The notes under the pieces: generated by a model | Database searches by the model: none | Seen by the model: only the letters and a program-made list of their open reading frames with translations | What the model was told of the DNA's origin: nothing | Position numbers and translations under genes: made by a program | Shown: positions 53,653-64,000 of the stretch, one piece after another | How the letters are laid out: every line of letters starts with the position of its first letter | Position numbering within the stretch: position 1 is the stretch's first letter | Assembly (NCBI RefSeq): GCF_023806465.1 | Contig: NZ_JAMSLS010000002.1 | Location: forward strand, 496,001-560,000 | Source: Thermomicrobium sp. CFH 73360 | Lineage (GTDB): Bacteria; Chloroflexota; Chloroflexia; Thermomicrobiales; Thermomicrobiaceae | Direction of reading: 5' to 3' | Length of the DNA stretch: 64,000 bases

Positions 53653-53953
53653 CGAAACCAGTTGAATACCCACGCGCAGCCCCGTACTCCTCCTCACGAC
53701 CGGGCGGTGCCGAGCCCCCACCGGTACCGCCCGCTTCTATCTCGACCCTCGGCACGTCAACCTGACCGTCAGCCCGTGAAACCGTGGGGCTCTTCCGTGC
53801 GTCATATTGTCGGAGACAAGGCCACTGTGGTACGGCCTACCAGGCAGAGTCAACGTGCATGGCTACCGTACGAGCGGAAGAGTGTCAGTCTGACATCGAT
53901 CGGCTAGACTGAGAACGATGCCGAAACGGTCGGACGAACGGAAGGAGGTCACG
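53653..53953 (+). other. Candidate leader or small RNA with two competing hairpins
   Basis: Hairpin 1 pairs 53701-53712 with 53722-53733 (12 bp, one G-T), followed by CTTCTATCT, a weak terminator tail. Hairpin 2 pairs 53708-53714 (TGCCGAG) with 53748-53754 (CTCGGCA), a perfect 7-bp stem that would break hairpin 1. The two cannot form together. The region could be a small RNA ending near 53742 or an attenuator-type leader of the secreted protein gene. A second -10-like TAGACT lies at 53905-53910. Confidence 0.35.
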
Positions 53954-56449
53954 ATGCAAACCGGACGACGACCGTCGAGGCTAAGGCGGGTACTGCTCGC
54001 CTGGGTGCTCGCAACCAGCAGCCTTGTTGCGGGAATTCCCATCATGCAGGCTGCCAGCCCACTCAGCGAGCAGCAGTCACGGGTCACATTTGCTGCTGTC
54101 TACAATGGCGAGACGTTACCGGGGAACGTCGGGCCGATCTGGAGCACCGTTGTGGTGCAGAACCTGGAGGCACTGCCGATTGAGATTCGACTGCGCAACC
54201 AGCGGGTCGGCGGAACGATCCGTGGCCCGTTCACGCTCGCGCCACGTGCCACCCGCGCATTTACGGCTGCGGAACTCGGAGGACTCGGACTGGTGCCCTC
54301 CGGTGGCAGCGCTGGCCTGGTGATCGAGGCGTCCTTCCCCGACACAAGCCAAGCAATTCTCACTGAACTCGGCATCTGCACGATCATCTGTAGCCCAGCA
54401 ATCGCCGCTATTGAGAAGCACGGCGGGCCCATGGCACTCGGGAACGATCTCCGCACCTCGAGCACCTTCCAGAGCGTCTCCAGTACGACCGGCATCCGTG
54501 ACGATGACTGGGAAGCTGCAAGCCTGGGACGCACCTGGGTGCTTCCGGTTGTCCAGACCAACAACGGCTGGAACACCATCATTAAGGTCGCCAATCTTCG
54601 CAACCAGCAAAACCAGGTAACGATCACCCTGCAGCGTTCGCGCGGCGTGGCGGTTGGCAACCCCACCTATACGCTGACCCAGCCCCTGAATGCTGGCCAG
54701 ACCTGGACGATCGATCTTTCTGGCGTTGTACCCGCTGAATGGGTCGGGGCTGCCTTCATCGACGCTCAGCTCGCCGGGGTTGCGGTCGTTGCTGAACGCT
54801 ACAAGCCGAGCTGGCGCATGCTGTTGACGAATGAAGGAGTGCCACGCACGACGGCGACAACCCGTTACGCTCCGATCGTCTTCCGCGACTACAACAACTG
54901 GAATACAGGCATCACACTGGTCAACCTGGACAGGAACAACACGAATACGCTGACGCTGACCTATTACGACCGGAACGGGATCGCCCAGGTCGTACCACCG
55001 GAACTGGCTGTCATCACGTTGCAACCTAATGAGAGTGCGTTCATCTACCGACCGGACATCGCGGTAGTCCCCAGTCTTGACCCCGCGCGGGTCAACGCGG
55101 TCGTGATCAACGGCCAGCGACCCTTTGCCGCAGCTGTGGATGAGGTGAAGTATCTTGCCGGGCCGGGCCAGGGGCAGGCGATGAGCTACATCGCGCCCTC
55201 CGCTCCGGACTTAGCCGGCACGAAGCAGAGCTGGTCAGCGGCCGAGACACAGGCACGCACAGCCGGACAGGTCACGGGCCGAGCCTGGTTCACGCACACG
55301 CTCGCGCTCCCGCTCTTCCAGGTCGGCGATGCCACCGGCCAGGGTGACATAAGCGGTTTTACGCTCTTCAACCCGACGGGTCGGCAGCAGCTTGCCAATG
55401 TGCAGCTCCTGGGCACAAATGGAACCCCAGTCACACCGAGCCAGGTCGGGACAAGCGAGAACCCGGTGCTGGTCGCGGTACCGGCTGGTGGCTACACGGT
55501 GATTTACCCATACGCAACCGATTTCGGCACAACCTTCACCGGCGCACCGCGGAACTTCACAGGCATGGCCCTGGTCGGCGTGACCGACGGCGCCGGCAGC
55601 GGGACCGGTTTCCTGGTGGGAGTTTCCAATGTCGTCAACTATCAAGTGCAGGGCGATGGCTCCGGTGTCTTCGTCCTGACGCCTACTCGCCACCCTGCCC
55701 TGACTCTGACCAACTTCCAGCTTGTCCTGCAACCCAGCACCACCTTGGCGACGGTCGGCGAGAATGTCCCGTTTATCGCCACGTTGACCAGCGGTGGTAC
55801 TCCACTCCCCAGTCGCACTCTGGCCTTCCGCGTGAGCAACGAGGGCACACCAACGCTCACGCCAACAACCGCAACGACCGACGGGAACGGTCAGGTGACG
55901 GTGACCCTCTCAAACAGCCAAGCGGTCACGAATACGCTGACCGTCTGGTGGGACCTGAACGGCAATGGCCAGCAGGACGCCACTGAACCGTCTGATACGA
56001 GCCAGATCACCTGGGTCCCGTTGGGACAGCTCTCCGGCCAGCTGTCAATCACGCGCAACAACAACCCAATTACGACCGTTCCGGCAGGAGACCTAGCCGG
56101 CAACAGCACGGTCACGGTGCAGGTGACATGTGACCTCTCTCCGAACACACCGACCGGCGTCCCGATTCTCCTGGAGTTCACGACCACCGACCACAATACT
56201 GGGCCGAACAATGTCCAACCGCGAGCCCGCTGGGCGAGCCAGCCGACACCGGCCGCCTCAGGTATCACTAGTCTCATAACTGGTAGCGGGAATGCCGCTT
56301 CGGCGAACCTGATTTTGGTGGACGGTGACGCGGACGCCGTCGGCAACGACGGGTTCACGATCGCCTGCTACCTGGACTATGGCCTGACAGGGGTGAAGGA
56401 GCCGACTGACCCGCTGCTCGCGACGTCCACCATCACTGTGGTGCCATAG
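53954..56449 (+). CDS. Large secreted beta-rich protein of no recognised family, with a late Ig-like (Big_1-like) segment
   Basis: An 831-residue exported protein. A basic N-terminus and hydrophobic segment (RRVLLAWVLATSSLVAGIP) ending near AAS at about residue 34 form a Sec signal peptide. The mature part is rich in Thr, Asn, Val and Gly. It contains repeated beta-sandwich-like stretches of similar design (WNTIIKVANLRNQQNQVTITL; WNTGITLVNLDRNNTNTLTL; ISGFTLFNPTGRQQLANVQL), each describing a strand followed by a repeat of polar turns. Residues about 600-690 resemble a bacterial Ig-like domain. No sortase, S-layer or membrane anchor is seen. GAAGGAGG precedes the ATG at 53954. A strong terminator follows, so it is transcribed alone. 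Function unknown; a cell-surface or matrix protein is plausible. Confidence 0.82.
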   Translation: MQTGRRPSRLRRVLLAWVLATSSLVAGIPIMQAASPLSEQQSRVTFAAVYNGETLPGNVGPIWSTVVVQNLEALPIEIRLRNQRVGGTIRGPFTLAPRATRAFTAAELGGLGLVPSGGSAGLVIEASFPDTSQAILTELGICTIICSPAIAAIEKHGGPMALGNDLRTSSTFQSVSSTTGIRDDDWEAASLGRTWVLPVVQTNNGWNTIIKVANLRNQQNQVTITLQRSRGVAVGNPTYTLTQPLNAGQTWTIDLSGVVPAEWVGAAFIDAQLAGVAVVAERYKPSWRMLLTNEGVPRTTATTRYAPIVFRDYNNWNTGITLVNLDRNNTNTLTLTYYDRNGIAQVVPPELAVITLQPNESAFIYRPDIAVVPSLDPARVNAVVINGQRPFAAAVDEVKYLAGPGQGQAMSYIAPSAPDLAGTKQSWSAAETQARTAGQVTGRAWFTHTLALPLFQVGDATGQGDISGFTLFNPTGRQQLANVQLLGTNGTPVTPSQVGTSENPVLVAVPAGGYTVIYPYATDFGTTFTGAPRNFTGMALVGVTDGAGSGTGFLVGVSNVVNYQVQGDGSGVFVLTPTRHPALTLTNFQLVLQPSTTLATVGENVPFIATLTSGGTPLPSRTLAFRVSNEGTPTLTPTTATTDGNGQVTVTLSNSQAVTNTLTVWWDLNGNGQQDATEPSDTSQITWVPLGQLSGQLSITRNNNPITTVPAGDLAGNSTVTVQVTCDLSPNTPTGVPILLEFTTTDHNTGPNNVQPRARWASQPTPAASGITSLITGSGNAASANLILVDGDADAVGNDGFTIACYLDYGLTGVKEPTDPLLATSTITVVP

Positions 56450-57149: not shown

Positions 57150-58448
57150 TCAACTCAGCGTGAGCGAATCAGCAAGGTCGAAGAACACGAGACCTTGCGG
57201 CAATTTGGGGAAGAAATACGTTGTCTTGGGCGGGAGTAGCTGGCCACGTTCCGCCCAAGCAAGGACCGTCTTCAACGGTGTTGGTCGAAGCAGGATTGCA
57301 AGAGCCGCCCGTCCCGATCGCACCGCAAGTGCCGCTTCGACGACATCCGGCGTGTACTCAACCACCTGTTCGAGCTCAGCCTGATCGAACGCACAGACGT
57401 GCCGAAGGACAAGCGTGTCAACAAGCAGGGCATCAGGCTTCGCAACGTCATCCCCCGGCAGCACGACTTCAAGGCTTTCCTCAGCATGGACAACGAGTGC
57501 GTGCGGCACAACCCGAGCAGCAAGCGTCTCGGTGGCGCGAATCAGCATGTCCGGACTCGGAGCTCGGATTACCTGCACAATCTTCGCATGGTCCACCAGG
57601 TGGCTGCGGATCGCATCCCAGTCACAGGGAAGCCAGCGCAGTAGCCGGTGGATCGGCCGGACAACAAGTGCAGGGTCAGCGGCATCCACCACATGGACTG
57701 GTACCCACGCAGCGGGATGACTGCTCGAGCCTGCAGGAACGTATCGCTGGGCATAGCGTTTCGCTGCCTCGAGGCGATGATGCCCATCGGCAACAACCAG
57801 CGGACGCGAGGCGATCAGTGCGGCCAGTTCAGCAGCCTGACTCCCATGGACAGCCCAGAGCGTGTGCCATTCCCCAGAGCGTTCGATTCGCCACAGAGGA
57901 CGCTCCTGCGCAGTGATCGCCTCAAGCATCTGGCGCAAGGTCCCTTCTCCGTCCCAAATGGCATAGACCGCACCAGCGTGCACCTGCACCGCCTCGAGCT
58001 GTCGCTCTCGTCGCTCGACCAGCTCCTGCGTTGTTCCTTCATGCGGGAGGAGACGAGCTCCACGGTGCGGGTCGAGCGAGGCAGCGAGGAAAACGCCGAA
58101 TCGTTCACGGGGTTGCCCCTCAAACACAAAGCGGTGTGCATAGACATAACAGGCCGGCGCCGCATCTGGCTGGACGATCCCTTGAGCGCGCCAGGCGCGA
58201 AACACGCGTGCGGCCGTCTGGAACGAGCGGCCATCCGGATCCGGGACCTCCAGGTGCAAGCAGTGGTGCGGGTGTTGCGCAGCCAGTGCTGCAGCCTGCT
58301 CGGCTGTCGGCACGTCGTCGGCCGGGCCAAGGACGGCAGCAAGATCACCAACGTGCTCCGCGACGTAGCGGAGTGCGCGAAACGGGCGGAGCGGTGGCGA
58401 TACCGTCGCCCGATCGTCCACGCGATCTGCTTGCGGCTCCGCGGTCAC
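57150..58448 (-). CDS. DUF1015 family protein
   Basis: A 432-residue cytoplasmic protein of the DUF1015 family. The hallmark VVADGHHRLEAAKRYAQ is near residue 210, preceded by LPHEGTTQELVERRERQLEAV near residue 130 (HE-T) and by PFRALRYVAEHVGDLAAVLGPADDV at the N-terminus. Members occur across bacteria, often near serine or one-carbon metabolism genes, and some relatives have been linked to kinase-like chemistry, but I cannot assign an activity here. An unknown 130-residue gene lies 20 bases upstream on the same strand. Confidence 0.87.
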   Translation of the reverse strand: MTAEPQADRVDDRATVSPPLRPFRALRYVAEHVGDLAAVLGPADDVPTAEQAAALAAQHPHHCLHLEVPDPDGRSFQTAARVFRAWRAQGIVQPDAAPACYVYAHRFVFEGQPRERFGVFLAASLDPHRGARLLPHEGTTQELVERRERQLEAVQVHAGAVYAIWDGEGTLRQMLEAITAQERPLWRIERSGEWHTLWAVHGSQAAELAALIASRPLVVADGHHRLEAAKRYAQRYVPAGSSSHPAAWVPVHVVDAADPALVVRPIHRLLRWLPCDWDAIRSHLVDHAKIVQVIRAPSPDMLIRATETLAARVVPHALVVHAEESLEVVLPGDDVAKPDALLVDTLVLRHVCAFDQAELEQVVEYTPDVVEAALAVRSGRAALAILLRPTPLKTVLAWAERGQLLPPKTTYFFPKLPQGLVFFDLADSLTLS

Positions 58449-58468: not shown

Positions 58469-58861
58469 TCAGGAGCGCTGAGTCTGCAGGTTGGTCAGCT
58501 GAGCAAGGACCGGCTCGTCGTCCTCTTCCGCCCCGAGCAACACCAAGACAACCGCCTCAGGGGCGGGTTCTGTCTCGGCGAGTGCCTCTTCAGGAGAAGG
58601 CACATAGCGGTCGTCACTCCACTGACCGGGTCGTTCAGGATGGTAGGTCTCGACAAGCCAGGTGCGAGAGACGATGGCGTTGCTCCCGAGCTTGCGCCGC
58701 GCCCGCTCCTGATAGCGGTCGATCCGACCATCCGGATGCAGGACGAACAGCTCGACGACCCGTCGCCCCTCGTGGCGCCCACGATGCAGGATCTGCTGTC
58801 CGGTTACCTCGTCCAGCTCCCGCGCTGGCTGACCACGTTCTGTCTTCAGAAAGTACCGCAC
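58469..58861 (-). CDS. Hypothetical protein, partner of the DUF1015 gene
   Basis: A 130-residue protein I do not recognise. The start is a GTG at 58861 after AGGAGGAG; the extra 21 codons upstream are unsupported. It is highly charged and soluble, with a central part reading like a small beta domain (RRVVELFVLHPDGRIDRYQER, split by polar turns), then an acidic tail (about residues 85-115, rich in Glu, Pro and Ala). No cysteines or membrane segments. Twenty bases separate it from DUF1015, so the two are probably cotranscribed. Confidence 0.7.
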   Translation of the reverse strand: MRYFLKTERGQPARELDEVTGQQILHRGRHEGRRVVELFVLHPDGRIDRYQERARRKLGSNAIVSRTWLVETYHPERPGQWSDDRYVPSPEEALAETEPAPEAVVLVLLGAEEDDEPVLAQLTNLQTQRS

Positions 58862-59038
58862 GGTCTCTCCTCCTGGCGCTGGCCTTGACTGCAGCGTCAC
58901 ACGAAGGGTCGCTGCAGAACACAAGTGTACCGCGTCGTCTCGCGGATGCCGGCACCAAGTTCTCTGTCCTCTCCAGGACTCCTGAGACGTTATCCGGTGT
59001 GAGGAGGTGCCACACTCGGGTCAGGCGGGGAGGTGACG

Positions 59039-59596
59039 ATGTTGACCGAAACCGACAAACAGCCAGCAGAACTGGAGGACGAGGCAGTCCTCCTCGCTGC
59101 TGCCAGAGAAGACCCGAACGCCTTCGCCGAGCTCTATCTCCGCTACCTTGGACCGGTCTACCGCTATCTCCTCGCTTGGACGGGCTCCCCGGCCGATGCC
59201 GAGGACCTTGCCCAAGAAACATTCCTCAGAGCCTATCGGACACTTGACACCTACCGCCCGCGCGGGTCACCTTTCCTGTTCTGGCTTCTCCGGATCGCAC
59301 GGAACGTGGCCATCGACGCGAGTCGTCGTCGGACGGTCGAGCGAGCCAGGAACTCCGCCATCCGTCCACTACTGTCACTGAGCCACGAACACTTTGATGA
59401 TCGGCTCCTCTTGGAGCAACTCCTGCGTCAGCTGACGCCGGGAAAGCAGGAGCTGCTCGCGCTCCGCTTCGCAGCAGGACTCTCCACGAGGGGGATTGCC
59501 CGACTCCTCGGGAAGCGGGAAGGCGCCGTCCGCAAACAGTTGTTCCGGATCATCCGAGAACTCCGGGAGGCCTACGATGCAGCGACCACCGAATGA
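59039..59596 (+). CDS. ECF-type RNA polymerase sigma factor
   Basis: A 185-residue extracytoplasmic-function sigma factor. Sigma region 2 is clear (FAELYLRYLGPVYRYLLAW, AEDLAQETFLRAYRTLDTY, with FLFWLLRIARNVAID), and region 4 has KQELLALRFAAGLSTRGIARLLGKREGAVRKQLFRIIREL, a helix-turn-helix for the -35 box. The ATG at 59039 follows GGGGAGG by five bases; the GTG at 59033 overlaps that site. Its 3' end overlaps the next gene by 20 bases, the usual sigma/anti-sigma arrangement. I could not find a convincing autoregulated ECF promoter upstream. Confidence 0.94.
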   Translation: MLTETDKQPAELEDEAVLLAAAREDPNAFAELYLRYLGPVYRYLLAWTGSPADAEDLAQETFLRAYRTLDTYRPRGSPFLFWLLRIARNVAIDASRRRTVERARNSAIRPLLSLSHEHFDDRLLLEQLLRQLTPGKQELLALRFAAGLSTRGIARLLGKREGAVRKQLFRIIRELREAYDAATTE

Positions 59597-61205
59597 CGAA
59601 CGTGCACACCACATTGCTGACTTCCTTCCACCGGACGCTGATCTCAAGGAACGGATGCTTGTGGCAAAGTTGCATCGCCTGCTGGGTGCAACAGAGCCTC
59701 CACCGACGCTCTCGGTTCGCATCCGGACGCTCGCACAAAGTATGGCACGCCAGTCCCCCCACCGGAAGGGCATCCAGGCACACCGTTTGCACGTCCTCCA
59801 GCCTATGCCGTCCCCTTCGACAGCGTCAGCGCCCATCCCTTCGCGGCGCAATCCGCTCCGTGTTATCGCTGGCACACTCGCGGCCTTGCTCGTCGTCGGA
59901 CTCTTGGCCATGACCTACCTCATGGTGCTTTCTACGCTGGACAACCAGCATCGGAACTCGCCGGGTGAGAGTGGACTTCCAGCATCGCAACCGTCGAGCG
60001 GCGGGTCCCCTGCCATCGGCCGACTCGCTCTCGCACTCGGCAATCGCATCGTGGTCGATGGAGCCGTGTGGATCGAGGACGGCGGAGTGAGTAGCCCGTC
60101 CTGGTCCTCGTCTGGACGCTGGCTCGCCTACCGAAAGGATTCACGCGAGGGAACGACCATTGTCATTCGCGACACACAAAGCGATCGCCGCACCGAGTTC
60201 GGCGTCGTAGCCAGCACCCCACCTGTCCCCTCAGCAGGGGCACTGCCCCCTGAACCACTGTTCGCCTGGTCACCAGTGGCGGACCTGCTGCTCCTTCGTT
60301 CAGTCAATGGTGGACTCTTTCTGCACGATCCAGTGGGGACAGGTCCCGATACTCCAGTCGCCCACGGTCCCGTCGAGTCGTTTGCTTGGGCGCCGGACGG
60401 GCGGCAAATCGCCCTCGTCCGCTCCCGCAGTGCGACCAGTGTCCCGGAGGGCGAGCTCGTTCTCCTCTCCTTGGAGGACTACCAGGAGCGCACTGTCTAT
60501 CAAGCGAAGGGAACCACCCTCCACATCGCCGCTTGGTGGCCTGACGGTCAAGGGCTCCTCATCTGGGAGCTCCCGCTCGCCTCGATGAGCCTCGCTACCG
60601 ATGGCGCCCCGCTCCGCTCGGTCGACCTCGCAACCGGTACCGTTGCGACCCTCGCGACGATGCAACCGGAGCACAGCCTCCTCACCTGGGGGCCACCGAC
60701 GGCCGAGTCTCCAACGGTGTTCCTCATCGCGGGTGAGGGGCGCGAGTACTGGAGCTCCACCAAAGCGCTGCTTCGCTGTGCTGTCCGCCTCGCTCAATGC
60801 ACACCGGTCGAACTACCTCGAGCCGACGTCGTCCCCGTTTCCCTGAGTTGGTCCCCTAACACGGGACGGCTGGTATTGGTCGTAGCACCGGCTCTGGAAC
60901 CCGCGTCCTGGGCGACGTGGGTCGCTGCGCATCAGCTTCTCATCCTGGATGCCGAAGGCACGCCATCCGACCCAGTACCGCACGAGCTGCAGGATGGAGT
61001 CCTGCAGGCAGCGTGGGCTACGCCAGACACCCTCCTCGTCCTCCAGGCGTTGCCCGAGGGCCACCTCCGTCTCACCAAGTTCGATACCGGGAACGGGAAG
61101 CTGCACGCGCTTGCCGATCTCACCGGTTACGGCCCCGAGACGCCGATAGACGGTCACGGTGCCCCGGCGCTCCGGCTGAAATGGATAGCCGCTTGGCACG
61201 CCTAA
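59577..61205 (+). CDS. One-pass membrane protein with external beta-propeller, putative anti-sigma factor
   Basis: A 542-residue protein. Residues 1-93 are cytoplasmic and helical at the start (ADLKERMLVAKLHRLL), then Pro/Ser-rich. One membrane helix spans about 94-120 (LRVIAGTLAALLVVGLLAM). The remaining 420 residues form TolB/WD40-like blades with repeated SPxxx-GRWLAYR, FAWAPDGRQIALVR, LSWSPNTGRLVLVV patterns, so the outside part is probably a six- or seven-bladed propeller. The cytoplasmic part lacks a zinc HxxxCxxC anti-sigma motif. The 20-base overlap with the ECF gene and the topology support a role in holding and releasing the sigma factor. This is an inference, not a known family. 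Confidence 0.78.
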   Translation: MQRPPNDERAHHIADFLPPDADLKERMLVAKLHRLLGATEPPPTLSVRIRTLAQSMARQSPHRKGIQAHRLHVLQPMPSPSTASAPIPSRRNPLRVIAGTLAALLVVGLLAMTYLMVLSTLDNQHRNSPGESGLPASQPSSGGSPAIGRLALALGNRIVVDGAVWIEDGGVSSPSWSSSGRWLAYRKDSREGTTIVIRDTQSDRRTEFGVVASTPPVPSAGALPPEPLFAWSPVADLLLLRSVNGGLFLHDPVGTGPDTPVAHGPVESFAWAPDGRQIALVRSRSATSVPEGELVLLSLEDYQERTVYQAKGTTLHIAAWWPDGQGLLIWELPLASMSLATDGAPLRSVDLATGTVATLATMQPEHSLLTWGPPTAESPTVFLIAGEGREYWSSTKALLRCAVRLAQCTPVELPRADVVPVSLSWSPNTGRLVLVVAPALEPASWATWVAAHQLLILDAEGTPSDPVPHELQDGVLQAAWATPDTLLVLQALPEGHLRLTKFDTGNGKLHALADLTGYGPETPIDGHGAPALRLKWIAAWHA

Positions 61206-62338
61206 CGTCCTTCGGTCAGTAGGGTACGGTAGAGGGCATCGTGGGCAGCAGCGATGTCATGCCAGGAAAAGCTGCGCGTGATGTCACGCGCCGCGCGTCG
61301 CAGGCGCTCGCGCACCACAGCGTCGCTCAGCAACTCGGAGAGCGCCTGTGCCAGGGCTCTCGGATTGTCCGGTGGAACAAGTCGTAGGTGCTCGCCATCG
61401 CGGAGCGGTGCGAGGACGGTCGGATCGCGCGGCTGCGTGGAAATGACAGCGGCACCACACGCCAGGGCGGCGACGAGCGTCCCGTTGCGCAGACTCGCGC
61501 CGTGGCGGAACGGGAGGACAACCACATCGACGGCCGCCAAAAGATCGGCCACCTCCTGCGCCGGGCGATAGCCGAGGTCAACGATCGGCCCTGAGCCCGC
61601 CACCCCGAGTGACCTCGCTCCCGCGTCCCGCGCCCCGTGCACATCTGGCTGCGCTCCGCCGATTAGCAGCAGCACGGGACGCGGTTCAGGTAACGCTTCG
61701 AGTGCTACCAGTAAGGTCTCCAGGCCCTTCTCCGGATGGCGGAAGCCGAAGAAGGCAACGAGCGCACGGCCCGCCGGTAGGCCGAGTCCCGCCCGCACCG
61801 CCGTCGGGTCGCGAGGCTCCGGTAGGTTCGAGCCGATTGGGATCCGGACAAGTCGCTCCGGCCTTACCCCCCAGCGGCGAAGCTCCCACTCGTCCTCCCG
61901 ATTGGTCGTGACAACCCGAGCAGAGGTTCGGGCCAAGATCCGCAATGATGCTCGACGGAGCAAACTGGCTTTGGGGAACAGGTAGGGGGCACGCAGATCG
62001 TGGAATGTGGTGACGACCGGCAGCGGACGCGCCAAGACGGGCAGGAGCACGATCCGCCCCTGGAGATCAAACGCCCCCGCCTGGTACTGGAGATGCACGA
62101 CGCCGTGCCACCCGCTCTCCCGGAGGGAGCGCAGCACACTCCAGAGTGGACGTCCCCATCCCGCAAGCTGCCAGCGCACGAGCGGTCCATCCGGTGCTGG
62201 CCCCGGGAGACGCCGCGTCGCGACCTCGACCGTCCAGCCCGTCGCGGACAGTGCGCACCCGAGCTGCCAGGTATAGTCGCCAACGCCGCCCCGAAGCGGC
62301 GGATACTCCCCGGTGACAAAGAGCACGCGTCTAGCCAT
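61202..62338 (-). CDS. Family 4 glycosyltransferase
   Basis: A 378-residue GT-B enzyme. VLFVTGEYPPLRGGVGDYTWQLGCAL (in two parts) at the N-terminus is the acceptor domain; the donor domain has ALVAFFGFRHPEKGLETLLVALEAL near residue 195 and the E-x7-E type region LLAAVDVVVLPFRHGASLRNGTLVAALACGAAVIS near residue 285. It would transfer an activated hexose to a glycan or lipid. The start at 62338 matches family beginnings; 39 upstream codons are unsupported. It begins 10 bases after the two-domain glycosyltransferase, and its stop overlaps the convergent propeller gene by three bases. Confidence 0.92.
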   Translation of the reverse strand: MARRVLFVTGEYPPLRGGVGDYTWQLGCALSATGWTVEVATRRLPGPAPDGPLVRWQLAGWGRPLWSVLRSLRESGWHGVVHLQYQAGAFDLQGRIVLLPVLARPLPVVTTFHDLRAPYLFPKASLLRRASLRILARTSARVVTTNREDEWELRRWGVRPERLVRIPIGSNLPEPRDPTAVRAGLGLPAGRALVAFFGFRHPEKGLETLLVALEALPEPRPVLLLIGGAQPDVHGARDAGARSLGVAGSGPIVDLGYRPAQEVADLLAAVDVVVLPFRHGASLRNGTLVAALACGAAVISTQPRDPTVLAPLRDGEHLRLVPPDNPRALAQALSELLSDAVVRERLRRAARDITRSFSWHDIAAAHDALYRTLLTEGR

Positions 62339-62348
62339 CACGAACCGC

Positions 62349-64000
62349 TCACCCCTGCCGGGCAAGGAGGCGCACCACCTGGGGACGCAGGAGGGAACGG
62401 AGTACGCACCAATCACGCACAAGACGCCGCCAGCGAAGCGCTCGCTTGTGCCCAATCAGCCACTTGGCACCCTCGCGGCCCAGGCGCAGGACATAGGTCA
62501 GGAGCAGAAAAGCCCGCAAGAGCTCTGCAGCGAGCGGCCCATAGAGGATATGGTAGAGCTGCACTTTCGCCGTATCAAAGGCGATCTGACGGAACGCTGA
62601 CTCCGGCTCACTCGAGGCGCCCTCACTATGGACAACCTCAGCATCCGGTAGATAGTACACGCGCCAGCCAGCACGACGGAGTCGCCAGAACCACTCGACC
62701 TCTTCCGAGTACAGGAAGAACCGTTCATCCAAGAGCCCAACGGTCGCTAGCGCCTCTCTCCGTATTGCCAGGCACGCTCCGACGAGCCAATCGACTTCTT
62801 GCAACTCGTCGTCGCTTCGATCCGCCACATAGTACTGCCGAAGTACTCGGTTGTTCCGCCAATAGTCCTGGATAAGCGTGCTCTCAAGAAATCCGGTCAG
62901 TAGCGTCGGAAAACGTCGCCGTGACGGTTGTGTTCGTCCGTCCGGATAGCGCAAGCGTGGTCCAACCGCCCCGACTGTCGGGTGTCTCGCCAGGAAGCGC
63001 ACGAGCCGTCCGAGCGCGTCGCCAACCGGTCGCGCATCCGGATTCAGCAGGACAATGACCCGCCCGCGTGCTTGCCGCATTCCTTGGTTTGCTGCAGCGG
63101 CGAATCCCTGGTTCACCTCGTTCACAATCAAGCGCACCCAGGGGTACCGCTCGGCCACAAGCGCGGCTGTGTCATCGGGCGAGGCGTTGTCGATGACAAT
63201 CACCTCACCAATGAGATCGCACGCCTCAAGGCTTGCACGAACGGCATCTAAGCACCCTGGTAGGTAGTCGCGACTCCGGTAACTGACAACAACCACCGAA
63301 ACGTCGAGTGTGGGGCTTTGCGCGAGTTCAGCAACCCGCCGACGCTCCTGTATCACACGCCGGCGCCACCCACGCGCCACGAGCACCCAGGTGACGAATG
63401 TCGTGACCGCCATCGTGCTTGCGAGGAACAGCCCATCGAGCCGATCACGATACCCACGCAAGACGACAAAGCGTCGCCAGAACTCGCGAAGTGGCTGGCC
63501 GACGAACGTCCGGCGGCGTGGGCGCTTCCCTTGTGCCATCAGCGAACGCGCTGCAAGGTGGGCATAGCGCAGTTGTTTCTGCACGAACTCACGCCGCGAG
63601 TCATAGTTGAGGTGCACAAGAGGAGCTGTGAGGCGGCCAGCGTTCCCCTCAAGCTCGACGACCTCGTGGACGGCGATGTCCGCTCGATACCGTGCCCGAC
63701 CAACCCGCAGCAGCCGGAGGTGCTCGTCCGGCCACCATCCACCACCACGAATCCACTTTCCCCACATCCAGTTCTGTGTCGGAATCCAGAAACCAGCTAC
63801 CGAGTCATCAACAGTGGTCAGGGCAAGGCGGATTTCCCTCGCCAGTTCCGGGCTGACCCGTTCGTCGGCATCGACAAAGAGCACCCAGGGTTCACGAGCC
63901 AGCTCGAGCGCGGCATTCCGTTGCGATGGGAAGTCGACAAAGCGCCGCGTCACGACCTCGGCACCGGCCGCTCGTGCGATCTCGACCGTCCGATCGGTCG
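62349..64000 (-). CDS. Two-domain family 2 glycosyltransferase, 5' end outside window
   Basis: An open frame of 550 codons that runs off the right edge, so the N-terminus is missing. The part before the first internal GTG reads STDRTVEIARAAGAEV-like sequence (TDRTVEIARAAGAEVV visible), the end of a GT-A motif, so 63953 is not the start. Domain 1 resembles WaaE/KdtX-type transferases (WVLFVDADERVSPEL with D-x-D, a hydrophobic segment near LASTMAVTTFVTWVL). Domain 2 is a second complete GT2 unit like rhamnosyltransferases (VSVVVVSYRSRDYLPGCLDAV, VIDNASPDD, VLLNPDARP, FFLYSEEVEWFWRLRRAGW). One protein may add two sugars in succession. Confidence 0.9.
   Translation of the reverse strand, partial: TDRTVEIARAAGAEVVTRRFVDFPSQRNAALELAREPWVLFVDADERVSPELAREIRLALTTVDDSVAGFWIPTQNWMWGKWIRGGGWWPDEHLRLLRVGRARYRADIAVHEVVELEGNAGRLTAPLVHLNYDSRREFVQKQLRYAHLAARSLMAQGKRPRRRTFVGQPLREFWRRFVVLRGYRDRLDGLFLASTMAVTTFVTWVLVARGWRRRVIQERRRVAELAQSPTLDVSVVVVSYRSRDYLPGCLDAVRASLEACDLIGEVIVIDNASPDDTAALVAERYPWVRLIVNEVNQGFAAAANQGMRQARGRVIVLLNPDARPVGDALGRLVRFLARHPTVGAVGPRLRYPDGRTQPSRRRFPTLLTGFLESTLIQDYWRNNRVLRQYYVADRSDDELQEVDWLVGACLAIRREALATVGLLDERFFLYSEEVEWFWRLRRAGWRVYYLPDAEVVHSEGASSEPESAFRQIAFDTAKVQLYHILYGPLAAELLRAFLLLTYVLRLGREGAKWLIGHKRALRWRRLVRDWCVLRSLLRPQVVRLLARQG

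Follow-up and report, generated by a model that had tools for sequence, protein, structure and literature searches.

Overlapping genes for a sigma factor and a membrane-anchored propeller

The window, a 64,000-nucleotide stretch of contig C12 in a 3.06 Mb genome of 38 contigs, carries on its plus strand a gene for a BldN-like ECF sigma factor of 185 amino acids (59039–59596, ATG at 59039, stop codon at 59594–59596). A Shine-Dalgarno-like GGGGAGG, read directly from the sequence, precedes it at 59027–59033. The protein matches Sigma70_r2 (2.8e-21) and Sigma70_r4_2 (6.9e-10) in Pfam, both above the cut-off, and consists of regions 2 and 4 only, joined by a short linker, as is the rule for ECF factors. 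The BldN family (TIGR02952) is its top NCBIfam model at 2.5e-31, with a score of 108.8 bits that does not reach the equivalog cut-off of 206.45, and the nearest solved structure is the sigma factor of the RsbN–BldN complex (6dxo_A, 1.4e-22).

A second gene on the same strand (59577–61205, ATG at 59577, stop codon at 61203–61205) begins within the first. The two reading frames share 20 bp (59577–59596), and a Shine-Dalgarno-like GGGAGG lies inside the sigma gene at 59565–59570. The overlap of an ECF gene by a membrane-protein gene, described in a first-pass annotation of this DNA, can thus be read directly. The product, hereafter the partner, is a propeller-bearing membrane protein of 542 amino acids and the presumed anti-sigma factor. 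Hydropathy analysis finds a single strong hydrophobic segment at about residues 95–118 (59859–59930; best 19-residue Kyte–Doolittle mean 2.38), taken as a transmembrane helix. The protein has 14 K/R and 7 D/E on its N-terminal side, against 28 K/R and 43 D/E on the C-terminal side. Because positive charge sits on the N side of this helix, the N-terminus is placed inside the cell: residues 1–94 (59577–59858) would form a cytoplasmic part and the presumed sigma-binding end, leaving about 424 residues outside. These sizes agree with those given at first pass, as does the absence of the zinc anti-sigma motif HxxxCxxC from the protein. The partner has only two cysteines, C401 and C408, both external.

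Several lines of evidence identify the bulk of the external portion, about residues 147–542 (60015–61202), as a beta-propeller. In a single-protein search of Pfam the partner has one PD40 match, just above the cut-off (2.9e-4), and it matches the NCBIfam TolB model (TIGR02800) at 1.3e-4 with 21 bits, short of the equivalog cut-off of 343. A profile built from five orthologues matches TolB structures at 1e-7. The AlphaFold model, made from an 8-row alignment with a mean pLDDT of 66 and many core blocks at 80–94, has an all-beta domain with blades from residue 151 on. Its best PDB matches in Foldseek are propellers of the S9/DPPIV and TolB types, and with another aligner Z reaches 20. Profile, model and structure matches therefore agree on the external TolB/WD40-like propeller proposed earlier. 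Seven W-x-P-like motifs (W176, W231, W271, W320/321, W371, W425 and W480), spaced 40–55 residues apart, suggest that it has seven blades. A peptidase domain C-terminal to the propeller is absent.

Two minus-strand genes are divergent from the sigma gene: one encodes a 151-aa protein with no Pfam family (58469–58924), the other a DUF1015 protein (57150–58448). On the plus strand, 53918–56449 encodes a secreted protein of 843 amino acids whose match to Big_1 is weak and falls below the cut-off; the protein is also found near the pair in the related genome G006. At the other end, two glycosyltransferase genes (GT4-like and GT2-like, minus strand, 61202–63998) converge on the partner gene; they lie outside the conserved unit, since G006 has a metal P-type ATPase gene downstream instead. 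In an alignment of three genomes upstream of the sigma gene some blocks are conserved, yet none of them makes a convincing -35/-10 pair. The same region yielded no conserved promoter of the sigma factor's own type, no sigma-70-like site and, by eye, no instance of the pattern tGTTAC-N16-CGTC of Tt-RpoE1, a sigma factor considered below.

Conservation of the gene pair and of the partner N-terminus

The orthologous pair is found overlapping and in the same order in G004 and G006, of the same genus, and in G013 and G016, of the sister genus. With one decayed copy counted, the other genomes that have the pair number two in the genus and three in the sister genus. Among the orthologues, identities to the window proteins are 46–70% for the sigma factor and 31–44% for the partner. 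The search for the same pair in other genomes, which the first-pass annotation had proposed as a check, thus returned a conserved unit, and the retention of overlap and gene order in relatives supports its view of the arrangement as one of the sigma/anti-sigma type. Both genes are missing from G001 and G002, two near-complete genomes of the genus. In G008 (L026, 6785–8885) the two genes have decayed jointly: a nonsense codon (TAG) interrupts the sigma gene ahead of region 4, and most propeller blades are missing from the partner through an in-frame loss that seems to run from one WSPDG repeat to another. A single-protein scan of the genome contigs found no relative, nor were any found on plasmids.

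The orthologous partners carry about 130–200 extra residues between the membrane helix and the propeller, which are absent from the window protein. We considered DUF4367 as a name for this extra domain, which resembles that family by eye, but it has no match in Pfam. Two other arrangements were also recorded. Directly upstream of the conserved pair in G013 lies a second, different ECF gene (L014, 11605–12859), and G010 contains a pair of ECF and membrane-propeller genes (L015, 11882–14302) of another ECF type within the same family, whose partner bears a PD40 propeller behind an N-terminus of unrelated sequence.

The cytoplasmic N-terminus is conserved over about 60 residues in the orthologues. 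Its core, ...LxxLLAxxEPPAELxxxIxxLA..., recurs in the partner of an ECF factor in G015, whose gene is interrupted in the assembly by a frameshift and whose external domain is different (a weak DUF4179 match). The occurrence of the same N-terminus before another external domain is the pattern of exchanged sensors. Two helices are predicted in residues 1–94 (23–36 and 43–57/59), with a Pro-rich linker between them; folding from the single sequence likewise gives two helices at low confidence (pLDDT 61, pTM 0.28), and across models two to four short helices are predicted, also at low confidence; a zinc-free anti-sigma domain of class I would comprise a bundle of three helices and a fourth that binds sigma region 2. 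The N-terminus has no family match in Pfam, NCBIfam or the PDB, and comparison with zinc anti-sigma domains by hhalign gives no detectable likeness (probability 1.3%). Judged by these profile comparisons, the N-terminus is a candidate for a sigma-binding module of an undescribed kind.

The same genome provides a comparison for the pair. In it, four other ECF genes are followed, in the same gene order, by membrane proteins with HxxxCxxC. The overlapping sigma/propeller pair is the zinc-free exception beside them. One membrane anti-sigma factor encoded elsewhere in it (L165, G000:C1, 1203–2669) combines zf-HC2, a membrane helix, a Big_5 domain and a long Pro/Thr-rich stretch, and contains no propeller.

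The propeller subfamily and the proposed function

A profile search at 1e-20 recovered the propeller subfamily in 38 of 400 Chloroflexota genomes, and it is also encoded on two Acidimicrobiaceae contigs. Most members are stand-alone lipoproteins or secreted proteins, and most of the Chloroflexota genomes that encode the propeller have no ECF neighbour within the flank fetched; the primary role of the subfamily need not be sigma control. The propeller gene lies directly behind an ECF gene in about 6 of 24 lineages (our own rough count), where far fewer than one would be expected. The ECF factors associated with propellers are spread over the ECF tree and fall into more than one group in its best version, although a single origin is not contradicted by well-supported branches.

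The forms that the subfamily takes are varied. In G230 and G180 a single protein contains zf-HC2 (2.8e-12 and 7.8e-11, respectively), one membrane helix and then the propeller, and its gene shares 4 bp with the ECF gene that precedes it. G425 (L108, 1495–3102) and G401 (L114, 1450–3162) encode a LuxR/GerE DNA-binding domain followed by one membrane helix and the propeller; these proteins are possible membrane-bound transcription factors with a ToxR/CadC-like layout. The membrane-helix form of the propeller stands behind an ECF gene in G143, G145 and G483. In G117 (L093, 8217–10250) the gene 15 bp downstream of an ECF gene encodes a lipoprotein propeller that has no cytoplasmic part. Judged by domain matches, propellers of this one subfamily occur with three or more kinds of output domain in the cytoplasm.

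This suggests a division of labour within the partner. Because the same propeller is joined to different known cytoplasmic regulatory domains, input is most likely the task of the propeller, and output that of the N-terminus; the fusions to zf-HC2 and LuxR/GerE domains make the sensing role once guessed for the propeller the most likely one. Since the ECF gene overlaps upstream, the output in the window pair would most likely be sequestration of the sigma factor. We consider it highly probable that the partner is the cognate anti-sigma factor of the ECF sigma factor, anchored in the membrane and free of zinc. Its short N-terminus in the cytoplasm would hold the sigma factor at the membrane, and the external seven-bladed propeller would bind a ligand or an envelope protein. 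Binding would change the partner and free the sigma factor, through either regulated proteolysis or a conformational change. M50 (site-2-type) proteases are encoded in the genome; such proteases are nearly universal, and their presence is not specific evidence for regulated proteolysis.

Other explanations of the gene pair were weighed against this one. Gene overlaps are frequent in compact genomes, and two unrelated genes might share 20 bp by chance. Conservation of the pair in other genomes refutes this: overlap, order and both sequences are kept across two genera, and the association with ECF genes recurs lineage by lineage. The partner could instead be an envelope protein, a co-transcribed target or accessory of the sigma factor rather than its inhibitor, with a propeller that binds, for example, glycans or proteins. 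The predominance of stand-alone lipoproteins and secreted proteins in the subfamily speaks for such a role, as does the lipoprotein behind the ECF gene of G117. We nevertheless regard it as unlikely, because an envelope protein would have no need of the conserved cytoplasmic N-terminus of about 60 residues, and because relatives bear bona fide anti-sigma or DNA-binding domains in its place.

The sign of the interaction is a separate question, as the evidence from the genes settles the partnership and not whether the partner inhibits or assists. A membrane co-activator or chaperone, whose N-terminus binds the sigma factor and is required for its activity, would fit the same gene arrangement. 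It is made very improbable by the inhibitory action of the tested analogue, Tt-TolB, and by the fusion of the same propeller to zinc anti-sigma domains. An inhibitory, membrane-anchored anti-sigma factor thus remains the preferred reading of the partner. A broader proposal is speculative and, in our estimate, rather doubtful as a whole: the propeller subfamily may be a plug-in receptor of Chloroflexota, used in lipoproteins, in zinc and zinc-free anti-sigma factors and in LuxR-type regulators for one kind of envelope signal, with the N-terminus of about 60 residues as a minimal two-helix sigma-binding domain of an undescribed class.

Relation to known sigma regulators

Class I zinc anti-sigma factors (zf-HC2/RsiW) resemble the partner in gene order, in the single membrane helix and in having an external sensor. 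They are characterised by HxxxCxxC, whereas the partner has neither this motif nor a zf-HC2 match in Pfam or any detectable profile similarity, which places it outside the zinc type. The missing motif is in itself ordinary, since it is absent from about 44% of the anti-sigma domains in class I (PMC7406223). The Streptomyces pair BldN/RsbN (PDB 6dxo) contains the nearest solved relative of the window sigma factor. RsbN is membrane-anchored like the partner, and its class III anti-sigma domain is a structural class apart from ASD I and II. A profile search of the window N-terminus against the PDB revealed no sequence relation between the two; the RsbN chain was not returned up to E = 10. The zinc-free N-terminus is of interest as a candidate undescribed sigma-binding module.

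The fold of the external domain is common to TolB and to the propellers of DPPIV/S9 peptidases. The partner differs from these proteins in being anchored by a membrane helix and in having neither a peptidase domain nor the N-terminal TolB domain. The input part can be recognised by sequence, which allows its signal to be sought by comparing systems.

In the open-licence literature we found no paper on PD40 and anti-sigma factors as a system, and where a review refers to WD40-like repeats, it does so solely for the C-terminal extensions that ECF57 sigma factors carry; propeller anti-sigmas may be listed in the main ECF classification paper. The design has, however, been established by experiment once, by Liu et al. 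in 2012. In Thermoanaerobacter tengcongensis the gene for Tt-TolB (TTE0322) lies 2 bp after the ECF gene Tt-RpoE1 (TTE0323), and the 645-residue protein has an N-terminus of 39 residues, a single membrane segment and a TolB domain (PMC3397946). Experiments by yeast two-hybrid, by EMSA and by in vitro transcription showed that this N-terminus binds Tt-RpoE1 and that the full protein inhibits it (PMC3397946). The suggestion that a propeller regulator is an uncommon design therefore holds, while its novelty does not, given Tt-TolB and the further examples in Chloroflexota.

The window pair and the T. tengcongensis pair are alike by architecture: the ECF gene is directly upstream on the same strand, and the partner crosses the membrane once, between a short cytoplasmic N-terminus and a large, TolB-like external part. 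They differ in that the window genes overlap by 20 bp where those of T. tengcongensis are 2 bp apart, and in the length of the cytoplasmic part, about 94 residues against 39 in Tt-TolB. The window pair would thus extend the single tested propeller anti-sigma design to another phylum.
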